A program made the translations under genes and the position numbers. From the NCBI GenBank assembly GCA_017437785.1, contig JAFRXH010000040.1, positions 1 through 64,000 of the forward strand: 64,000 bases of DNA, given 5' to 3'. This document shows, in pieces, positions 35,432 through 38,125 of the stretch (positions are counted from its first letter, which is position 1; every line of letters starts with the position of its first letter). The notes beneath the pieces were generated by a model. That model was not told the DNA's origin, searched no databases, and was given only the letters and a program-made list of their open reading frames with translations. This DNA comes from Lachnospiraceae bacterium. GTDB lineage: Bacteria > Bacillota > Clostridia > Lachnospirales > Lachnospiraceae.

Positions 35432-35578
35432 TGTTACTATTCACAGCCCTTCGTGCTGTGATAGTAACGGGTTTTGCCAATGAAAATCGCCTGCGGCGAT
35501 GGGCAAAACCCTTCTCTCCCGGAATGTTTTGGGTCGTAATCGCGCAGCAAGTGCGCGATTCGACTGTGAATAGTAACA
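35432..35578. mobile_element. MITE-like element with 15-bp terminal inverted repeats
   Basis: The ends are perfect 15-bp inverted repeats (TGTTACTATTCACAG at 35432 and its complement ending at 35578). A third, one-base-shorter copy of the right end lies inside at 35455-35468 and pairs with the left end as a hairpin. Two more hairpins follow: GGGTTTTGCC with GGCAAAACCC (35469-35511, with a nested 6-bp stem), and 35533-35564 with AATCGCGCA in the stem. It encodes nothing credible. It sits between the secG promoter and the aroF promoter. Confidence 0.7.
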
Positions 35579-35686: not shown

Positions 35687-36715
35687 ATGTCTTTTAAGAT
35701 AAAACGCGCTCTCCCCACACCGGAGGAGATATGCTCACAGTATCCGGTACCCGAGGAGCTAAAAGAACTCAAAAAGAAACGCGATCAGGAGATCAGCGAT
35801 GTAATAAGCGGTAAGAGCGATAAATTCCTGCTGATAATCGGCCCCTGCTCTGCCGACAACGAAGAAGCTGTCGTGGATTATACCGACCGTCTGGCACGTA
35901 TCTATCCCAAGGTAAGCGACAAGCTGATACTGATCCCCCGTGTATATACCAACAAGCCCCGTACCAACGGTGACGGCTATAAGGGGATAGTCTCCCAGCC
36001 CGATCCGCAGCAGAGTGAAGATTTTCTTCATGGCCTGATCGCTATGCGCCAGATGCACCTGCGTGTCATGAGCGAATCGCATCTTACCGCAGCCGATGAG
36101 ATGCTCTATCCCGAGAACTGGCCTTATATCTCGGACATACTCTCTTATGTAGCTATCGGCGCGCGTTCCGTTGAGGACCAGCAGCACAGGCTTACCAGCA
36201 GCGGCTTTGATGTGGCTACCGGCATGAAGAATCCCACCAGCGGACATCTGTCGGTAATGCTCAATTCCATCTATGCCGCACAGCAGCCCCACTCTTTTAT
36301 ATTCAGGGGAAATGAGGTCGAGACCAGCGGCAACCCCTTAGCACACGCCATACTGCGCGGTGCAGTAAACAAAAACGGATCCAATATCTCCAATTATCAT
36401 TATGAAGACCTGGCCCTGCTTCTTGAGCTGTATCAGGAGCGCAACGTCGTTAACCCGGCCTGCATAATCGATGCCAATCATAACAATTCCGGCAAGCGCT
36501 TTGCGGAGCAGCCCCGTATCATCAAGGAAGTACTGCACTCCCGCCGCGTCAATCCCGAGATCAGAAAGCTCGTCAAAGGCGTCATGGTCGAAAGCTACAT
36601 CAAAGAAGGCAGTCAGAAGATCGGCGAAGGCATCTACGGAAAATCCATAACCGATCCCTGCCTTGGCTGGGCCGACTCCGAGCAGCTCATCTACGACATA
36701 GCTGACCTCGTCTGA
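35687..36715 (+). CDS. aroF: 3-deoxy-7-phosphoheptulonate synthase, class I
   Basis: DAHP synthase makes the first intermediate of the shikimate pathway from phosphoenolpyruvate and erythrose 4-phosphate. The 342-residue protein has the class I motifs GPCSADNEEAV, YTNKPRTNGDGYKG (the KPRT phosphate-binding loop), AIGARSVEDQQHR, a metal-ligand region DANHNNSGKRF and the C-terminal SITDPCLGW. GGAGG lies 8 bases before the ATG. It is isolated from aroE/aroQ/aroK, lies opposite to its neighbours and is flanked by repeat elements on both sides. No separate regulatory domain is seen; allosteric specificity cannot be read, so the letter F is only a family name. Confidence 0.95.
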   Translation: MSFKIKRALPTPEEICSQYPVPEELKELKKKRDQEISDVISGKSDKFLLIIGPCSADNEEAVVDYTDRLARIYPKVSDKLILIPRVYTNKPRTNGDGYKGIVSQPDPQQSEDFLHGLIAMRQMHLRVMSESHLTAADEMLYPENWPYISDILSYVAIGARSVEDQQHRLTSSGFDVATGMKNPTSGHLSVMLNSIYAAQQPHSFIFRGNEVETSGNPLAHAILRGAVNKNGSNISNYHYEDLALLLELYQERNVVNPACIIDANHNNSGKRFAEQPRIIKEVLHSRRVNPEIRKLVKGVMVESYIKEGSQKIGEGIYGKSITDPCLGWADSEQLIYDIADLV

Positions 36716-36727
36716 TCCCCATGAACC

Positions 36728-37092
36728 CAGGGGACGGTTCTCTGTGTTCATTTCATCGATACAGGGGACGGTTCTCTGTGTTCACAAAGATTTACAATGC
36801 TAAAAAAACAGGCAGAAGCATCGTGCACCATTGTAGTGAGGCCGCTGTTTTGTGACTGCGATAGGTTTACCAGGGATGGACCGCCACGGATGGCGGGACA
36901 AGGTCGACAGTGGATATGGATTTCCACTGTCGACCGGTCACGGACGGTTCCATTGAATAGATCGCGGTCACTTAAAACAGTGAGCCAAACGGAACCGGTG
37001 CACGTGCTCTGCCTGTTTTTTAGCATCAATGAATATATGAACACAGAGAACCGTCCCCTGTACCCACTATGAACACAGAGAACCGTCCCCTG
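36728..37092. repeat. Palindromic repeat element with paired direct and inverted 23-bp repeats
   Basis: Two direct copies of a 23-bp unit (36728-36750 and 36762-36784, core GGGGACGGTTCTCTGTG) face two inverted copies (37038-37060 and 37070-37092). Between them the arms continue to pair: 36799-36829 with 36997-37024, GTGACTGCGAT (36852-36862) with ATCGCGGTCAC (36961-36971), CTGTTTT with AAAACAG, and a perfect 13-bp central stem (36902-36914 with 36923-36935). The whole can fold into one long imperfect hairpin. It lies in the 3' untranslated region of aroF, before the shared terminator. Confidence 0.8.
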
Positions 37093-37143
37093 TACCCATC
37101 CCTGTGTTCGTCCCCCGGGGTCATAAGGGCGGCGGGGAGTGTG

Positions 37144-37173
37144 AAAAACCCCGGCTGCAAAGCCGGGGTTTTT
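37144..37173. terminator. Bidirectional terminator between aroF and xerD
   Basis: A perfect 13-bp stem (AAAAACCCCGGCT with its complement) closes a GCAA tetraloop, with T runs in both directions. It serves the converging aroF and xerD genes. Confidence 0.95.
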
Positions 37174-37213
37174 CTTAAAAATAGAGGAGAATAATGATTT
37201 ACAAAAATGGGGA

Positions 37214-38125
37214 TCATCCCCTGGGGAAATTCTTTACATATACTTCGCGGAGCTTGTTCTGCGACATGTTTGCGTATATCTGTGTGGTTGAGATATCGGA
37301 ATGTCCCAGCATCTCCTGTACGCTGCGAAGGTCTGCACCGTTCTCTACCAGATGTGCTGCAAATGAATGGCGCAGGGTATGCGGTGTGATATCGGCAGTG
37401 ATGCCTGCCTTTCTTGCGTAATATTTTACCAGTTTCCAGAAGCCCTGACGGCTCATGGGCTGACCTGAGCAGTTGGTAAAGAGCACGTCGGATGTCTGAT
37501 CCTCAAGCATAAGATCCCTTGCATTCTTAAGGTAGTCAGTCAGAGCTCTCTTTGCGGGTGCACCGAAAGGAACCACGCGCTCCTTCTTTGCATCCCTGCA
37601 TACTATATATCCTATCTGAAGGTTCACATCAGAAACATTAAGGCTTATAAGCTCGGATACCCTTATGCCTGTAGCATAAAGCAGCTCAAGCATTGCACGG
37701 TCACGCAGATCCTTGGGCGCAGCTCCTCTGGGCTGGTCTAAAAGCCTGTTTACTTCATCCGTGGTAAGTATCTCGGGCATCTTCTTTTCGATCCTGGGTG
37801 CCTTAAGATCCTCTGCTATGTCTTCGCTTACATATCCCTTACGGAAAAGGAAATGGAAGAATGCCTTTATCGAAGCTATGTTACGGGATACAGTAGCTGC
37901 TGCGGCTCCTCCTTTCTCCATAAGCAGGATATAATTCTGAAGTGTTGTTGCACTTACTTTTGAAAGCTCATCTACGCCCTGCGTATACAGAAAGCTTTCA
38001 AGTTTAGCTATATCCCTCTTATAGGAAAGCTCCGTATTGTGGGATGTCTTCTTAACATCTCGCAGATAAGTAATAAACTCATCCAGCTCTTTCTCCATCA
38101 TGCTGACTTCACCGGCATTTACCAT
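37214..38125 (-). CDS. xerD: Site-specific tyrosine recombinase XerD
   Basis: XerD resolves chromosome dimers at dif together with XerC-type partners. This 303-residue protein has an N-terminal SAM-like DNA-binding domain and the complete catalytic set: R155 (GIRVSE), K180/K181, H249-x-x-R252 (HTLRHSF), H275 (LGHSDISTTQIY) and the nucleophile Y284. Neighbours are housekeeping genes and no attachment sites are seen, so it is taken as the chromosomal Xer protein and not a mobile-element integrase. GAGGG lies 7 bases before the ATG. A strong promoter lies about 100 bases upstream. Confidence 0.94.
   Translation of the reverse strand: MVNAGEVSMMEKELDEFITYLRDVKKTSHNTELSYKRDIAKLESFLYTQGVDELSKVSATTLQNYILLMEKGGAAAATVSRNIASIKAFFHFLFRKGYVSEDIAEDLKAPRIEKKMPEILTTDEVNRLLDQPRGAAPKDLRDRAMLELLYATGIRVSELISLNVSDVNLQIGYIVCRDAKKERVVPFGAPAKRALTDYLKNARDLMLEDQTSDVLFTNCSGQPMSRQGFWKLVKYYARKAGITADITPHTLRHSFAAHLVENGADLRSVQEMLGHSDISTTQIYANMSQNKLREVYVKNFPRG

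Follow-up and report, generated by a model that had tools for sequence, protein, structure and literature searches.

The 365-bp palindrome behind aroF in the 64,000-nucleotide stretch of Lachnospiraceae DNA analysed here (the window) is most likely a nested, non-autonomous and probably mobile palindromic DNA that was inserted at this site and has a TwoAYGGAY element as its core. It is best read as a REPIN-like palindrome with the TwoAYGGAY element in its loop. Multiple copies, nesting, empty sites in relatives, lineage-specific arms and similar copies at unrelated sites were all observed; that the element and its copies are mobile is probable from this distribution, no movement having been observed. 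These results indicate that TwoAYGGAY behaves here rather as DNA that spreads than as a regulatory RNA. The original prediction, made from the sequence of the window, had recognized the palindrome but had not identified its centre as a member of the Rfam family TwoAYGGAY, which is a dispersed palindromic element in its own right.

Results

Organization and fold of the element

The element is bracketed by four copies of a 23-nt unit, CAGGGGACGGTTCTCTGTGTTCA, two of them direct (36728-36750 and 36762-36784, plus strand) and two inverted (37038-37060 and 37070-37092). The unit arm pairs are 93-100% complementary across 24-30 nt. Further inside, the arms 36803-36816 and 37008-37021 are paired at 14 of 14 positions, and a perfect 13-bp stem (36902-36914 with 36923-36935) forms the second hairpin of TwoAYGGAY. 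Units and pairing arms were found where the original prediction had placed them, and the perfect stem is confirmed (Table 1). The core of the unit, the 13-mer GGGGACGGTTCTC, has four occurrences in the window, where 0.02 would be expected.

As RNA, the region 36716-37105 has a folding energy of -228.3 kcal/mol (z -17.6), and as DNA one of -131.8 kcal/mol (z -18.0); in neither case did any of 100 shuffled sequences fold as well. The structure differs from the single giant imperfect hairpin that had been proposed in that its top is a fork of two hairpins and not a plain hairpin or single rod.

The aroF stop codon (36713-36715) lies on one side of the element and an inverted repeat with a T run on the other. 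The latter is taken for the aroF terminator, and it was unlisted by a simple terminator scan. The element thus lies inside the predicted aroF 3' UTR, in agreement with the location first assigned to it. No sigma-70-like promoter was listed across 36600-37250. A second palindrome is present upstream of aroF (35432-35578), with 15-nt perfect arms (TGTTACTATTCACAG) placed 117 nt apart and an inner inverted repeat; its 13-mer arm was seen at one other locus (L188) among 404 loci, overlapping records of its own locus aside.

Table 1. Features of the element and its surroundings, in positions of the window.
Feature	Position	Strand	Remarks
aroF (name from the original prediction)	35687..36715	+	342 aa
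Outer unit 1, REP-like, REPIN half	36728..36751	+	arm pairing; 37 genome-wide matches
Inner unit 2, REPIN half	36760..36784	+	100% complementary to 37038-37062
Left arm of TwoAYGGAY element	36797..36828	+	outside Rfam model
TwoAYGGAY RNA (RF01731)	36829..36997	+	69.5 bits, gathering 43, model 1-168
Hairpin 1	36881..36896	+	loop ACGGAT (36886-36891)
Hairpin 2	36902..36935	+	perfect 13-bp stem; loop TATGGATT; ATGGAT at 36916-36921
Right arm of TwoAYGGAY element	36998..37026	+	
Inner unit 3	37038..37062	-	partner of unit 2
Outer unit 4	37069..37092	-	partner of unit 1
Terminator-like hairpin	37143..37174		counterpart retained in G025 and G001 empty sites
xerD-like gene (name from the original prediction)	37214..38125	-	convergent neighbour

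The TwoAYGGAY core is a dispersed palindrome

In a covariance search the centre of the element matched the RF01731 model at full length and above its gathering threshold, with both AYGGAY-loop hairpins. The sole other above-threshold match in an Rfam scan of the whole window was tmRNA (RF00023; 32124-32457, minus strand). Sub-threshold Rfam matches (TD-2 and others) were weak and were taken as overlap or chance.

Eleven TwoAYGGAY copies are present in the 3.2-Mb genome from which the window derives (hereafter own genome). Of the 35 genus genomes, 26 contain the family, as do 33 of 116 genomes overall, own counted; among these are genomes that lack the unit of the window and some that lack a Y1 match. 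A search of phage and plasmid collections at blastn sensitivity gave no match to the core.

For comparison, 98 oriented copies from 10 Lachnospiraceae genomes were picked from the listed matches, a sample of the copies in the 33 positive genomes; the search across genomes had scored no more than 21 candidates in each. The 40-nt flanks of the Rfam core are self-pairing in 96 of the 98, better than 95% of cross-genome flank pairs. The arm sequences differ between genomes and are common within subfamilies. Eleven copies in G094 represent a single composite, about 600 bp long and ending near TAAACTG on one side and CAGTTTA on the other, and are set in unrelated flanks; nine hold its left half, which is missing in one and broken off by the contig end in another. 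In G019 and its relatives, some copies of the terminal repeat enclose a core with an internal deletion, and in G008 the repeat stands as a palindrome with no core.

Other features of these copies were also seen. The left half of the G094 composite contains a further palindrome, without a threshold Rfam match in L203 and L207. In 5 of the 11 G094 copies (L203, L207 and others) the TAA of the terminal TAAACTG is the stop codon of the upstream gene, and several have a facing gene whose stop is at or close to the opposite end. Divergent inverted pairs of TwoAYGGAY copies occur in own genome at L114 (C65:112441/112721), where the palindrome GCCACCGGTGGC is repeated at the boundaries, and at L113 (C16); similar inverted pairs are found in G018, G032, G065 and G094.

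The 23-nt unit and Y1 transposases

The unit is dispersed in own genome. With at most two mismatches allowed, a 17-mer of its core matched at 37 places in 3.2 Mb, against none for the reversed pattern and about 0.5 expected from a simple equal-base estimate, and a single copy is thereby ruled out. Many units fold on themselves as a hairpin (GGGTACAG...CTGTACCC). Four complete close inverted pairs, 35-41 nt apart, are present at C31, C81 (two) and C106, and five more units lie less than 50 bp from a contig end, within pairs that appear to be cut. Own genome was the only one of the 35 genus genomes to show the stem-bearing unit, against 26 with TwoAYGGAY; the ranges of shell and core therefore differ. 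The 23-mer had no exact match in a genome-contig collection, from which own genome is possibly left out.

It had been suggested that the whole 365-bp composite is a single unit mobilized by a Y1 (TnpA_REP) transposase. The likeness of the unit to a Y1-associated motif holds, as the GGGGACGG core is found around 6 of 30 inspected Y1 loci, one of them in own genome. No Y1 gene flanked by the unit of the window was found. The two Y1 genes of own genome, at L049 (C33) and L111 (C98), each have their own inverted units nearby, which by eye are GAGGACA...TGTCCTC and GGTCAGGTACTGTGAAC; those at L049 carry the GGGGACGG core with other stems and those at L111 are unrelated. The GGGTACA-stem unit was seen by eye at none of 30 Y1 loci, own assembly being in 107 contigs so that a gap is possible. 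TwoAYGGAY was above threshold at none of the 31 Y1 loci scanned, with a reach of at most 1.5 kb per side, and presence of the two across the genus gave no linkage (Y1 match in 13 of 26 TwoAYGGAY-positive and 2 of 9 negative genomes, p 0.24). TwoAYGGAY matches number at least 21 in G030 and at least 17 in G034, neither of which has a Y1 match. Of the 37 units 30 were read, and 5 of these had a GT[AG]G in the 12 nt preceding them; there is no consistent foot.

In 5 of 11 own copies, flanks 55-250 nt out from the core pair more strongly than 99% of a cross-genome null, as do those of 7 of 86 copies from the other nine genomes; this null includes some homologous pairs (maximum 150), and C50 barely passes (27.0 against 26.2). 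The window copy lies within two unit pairs and the C50 copy within one, with the same left unit-to-core distance of 65 nt. At C81 a degraded unit (CGGTTCTCT/CGGTTCTGT) occupies a similar place. The copy at C65:41560 (L115), in a divergent intergenic region, is inside a different palindrome (CACCTCATCCGTC ... CTCAAGGGGAAGGC). No other TwoAYGGAY copy was seen to have the outer unit pair.

A single Y1-mobilized composite is thus favoured by the unit core common to some Y1 genes and by the return of inner unit pair and core at C50. Against it stand the Y1 genes with other units, the genomes rich in TwoAYGGAY without a Y1 match and the outer pair seen at the window copy only, and we consider it rather doubtful as an account of the whole. 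The first interpretation stands in part: a dispersed repeat with empty sites and a Y1-like core is present, but a Y1 gene with the matching unit is not among the loci found. From the nesting we infer either insertion into palindrome loops or movement of the composite together, and the data fit both.

Empty sites in relatives and the aroF 3' UTR

Many Lachnospiraceae have aroF and xerD next to each other in convergent orientation. The interval between them measures 501 bp in own genome, against 90 bp in G025 and 139 bp in G001, the nearest relatives by AroF (96%), both of which are without the element and retain the terminator-like hairpin. Empty aroF-xerD intervals, which the original prediction had pointed to as a check, are thus present in the closest relatives. 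Among 110 loci surveyed, 49 rows have both genes in the order of own genome, own included, and at least seven pairs of these rows are one record twice. The unit was in none of the 48 other rows. Their intervals are 16-286 bp in 41 and 786-1201 bp in seven, and no TwoAYGGAY above threshold was found at the seven long-interval loci or at the 286-bp locus.

Two other loci of own genome gave the same picture. At C65:41560 an interval of 555 bp corresponds to empty ones of 93 bp in G025 and 92 bp in G001. At C65:112441/112721, an interval of 854 bp is reduced to 105 bp in G001; in G025 no right half was found beside the left. Empty sites were therefore seen at 3 of 3 own-genome loci tested, out of about nine loci. 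The TwoAYGGAY core matches of G001 are at other places than the C65 loci compared. No target-site duplication was recognized, the junctions at the compared empty sites being too diverged to call.

In G001 a TwoAYGGAY copy (L238, 1059-1222) lies upstream of aroF, where the downstream element is absent. The aroF 3' intervals of L243 and L238 hold other repeat-like inserts, as judged by eye, and the site may therefore be an insertion hot spot.

The place of the element, between the aroF stop and a terminator-like hairpin, would also suit a device selected by the host, in which the hairpin shields aroF mRNA from 3' exonucleases or damps read-through into xerD. Gene calls (by a simple ORF rule) flank 92 of the 98 sampled copies on either side; of these 92, 58 are downstream of a same-strand gene and 34 are not, and 29 have convergent and 13 divergent flanking genes. 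Without G094 the same-strand count is 45 of 74, and the orientation bias is therefore weak. Divergent sites exist, C65:41560 among them, and the short aroF-xerD interval of the 41 rows argues against a device of this kind at aroF. We regard such a selected function as improbable and continue to favour an inserted, probably mobile palindrome.

RNA or DNA

In a stem kept as RNA, G-U pairs should far exceed A-C on the transcribed strand. When the arms and the outer core stem of all TwoAYGGAY copies were counted, G-U and A-C were equal (151 each), i.e. strand-symmetric. The 6S RNA control, under the same treatment, gave 29 G-U and 1 A-C; the two ratios differ with p about 1e-7 when copies are counted as independent, though they are related. 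This control comprised 16 loci (17 matches minus the partial L370), with only 5 of the 17 above the family cut-off, and was chosen because a tRNA stem control (46 Watson-Crick, 3 G-U, 0 A-C) gave just 7 genes.

The own-genome stems lean as in RNA, with 25 G-U and 12 A-C summed over three stem regions. The core stem alone has 8 G-U and 0 A-C in own genome, against 4 and 12 in G094 and 2 and 6 in G030. Mismatches in the small hairpins are few (3 G-U and 0 A-C in hairpin 1; 9 and 6 in hairpin 2). With the own-genome lean, this means that the hairpins may still act as RNA.

As a regulatory RNA, TwoAYGGAY has been proposed to bind CsrA through its GGA loops and so to act as a decoy (PMC4333381, in its available part). 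The GGA is mostly kept, in 76 of 98 hairpin-1 and 94 of 98 hairpin-2 loops. Hairpin 1 has few non-Watson-Crick pairs, A-G/G-A neighbours are present in many hairpin-2 stems, and a csrA match (E <= 0.001) was found in 28 of 33 TwoAYGGAY-positive against 55 of 83 negative genomes (p 0.07; two of the csrA matches, 83 in total, score under the cut-off of the family). These points, with the G-U lean of the own-genome stems, speak for a decoy. Own genome (100% complete) gave no match to csrA, and GGA is nonetheless present in 22 of 22 loops; G012, G019, G065 and G079 have csrA, and the hairpin-1 GGA is absent in 22 of their 23 copies. The GGA loops thus do not track csrA as we would expect of a decoy, which weakens the idea. 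Outer stems that are strand-symmetric overall and dispersed copies with empty sites also count against it, and a CsrA decoy is quite improbable as the explanation of TwoAYGGAY.

A small protein is practically dismissed: ORFs of 91 aa (36797-37072, plus strand) and 98 aa (36748-37044, minus strand) are open in the element, and stops break both frames in all four other same-subtype copies of own genome, which excludes conserved coding for those copies and leaves nothing of the conserved protein that the original prediction had named as contrary evidence.

Discussion

The preferred reading, a mobile palindrome nested in another, would proceed as follows. After the split from the nearest sampled relatives, the element would have been inserted between aroF and its terminator. 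Its shell consists of two REPIN-like inverted unit pairs, one within the other, and its core is TwoAYGGAY, a dispersed Lachnospiraceae palindrome with two conserved hairpins. A Y1 (HUH) transposase, no longer present or unrecognized, may mobilize the units in trans as single-stranded hairpins, while the core may travel in the loops of palindromes or by an enzyme of its own that recognizes its two hairpins. For the host the element would be mainly a passenger of the aroF 3' UTR, with a possible effect on the stability of the mRNA 3' end. Units and core might also have met by chance; among the other 10 copies of own genome the architecture returns only at C50 and, in weak form, at C81.

A broader proposal is put forward tentatively: TwoAYGGAY could be the structured core of an undescribed, Lachnospiraceae-wide class of mobile palindromic DNA, which would be moved by a non-Y1 enzyme, have its hairpins recognized in single-stranded form, and settle in the loops of REPINs to give layered palindromes. 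The present data indicate dispersed palindromic DNA with empty sites, a long outer stem that is strand-symmetric over the whole sample, and loops that do not follow csrA. If this is right, probable mobile DNA is what an annotated RNA family should be taken for, and the enzyme that moves it becomes a testable question. The element behind aroF is also a concrete example of a palindromic element that sits in the loop of a second one.

Bacterial MITEs are short and non-coding, with inverted repeats and empty sites, and the element resembles them in all these respects. It differs in having no recognized parent transposon or target-site duplication. To our knowledge, a conserved two-hairpin core is unusual among MITEs.

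The TIR repeats of TIRYTs and TIRtrons (Di Nocera 2013, PMC3733652) have a GGGGWSAS motif, are self-complementary and are dispersed as dimers or clusters, according to the available part of that paper, which also reports REP dimers within palindromes in other species. The GGGG-based motif and the self-complementary terminal repeats are shared with the element, but GGGGACGG of the unit fits 7 of 8 GGGGWSAS positions and no TIRYT gene with the repeat of the window was found. With REPINs and RAYT-associated REPs, as the accessible text of Bertels and Rainey (2011, PMC3116915) describes them, the element has in common inverted unit pairs, hairpins and dispersal in the genome. Unlike them it has no matching RAYT and no consistent GT[AG]G foot, and it carries an element of about 230 bp in its loop.

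Within TwoAYGGAY itself, RF01731 is of the type Cis-reg in Rfam, and the available part of Weinberg 2010 (PMC2864571) tabulates the family as a probable RNA that is probably not cis-regulatory. In the accessible parts of the literature, exclusive of the supplement of that 2010 paper, no description of TwoAYGGAY as mobile or repeated was found. The element of the window agrees with the family in matching its full-length model with both AYGGAY hairpins, and differs in that the family here lies at the centre of longer palindromes, which are dispersed and have arms specific to the lineage.
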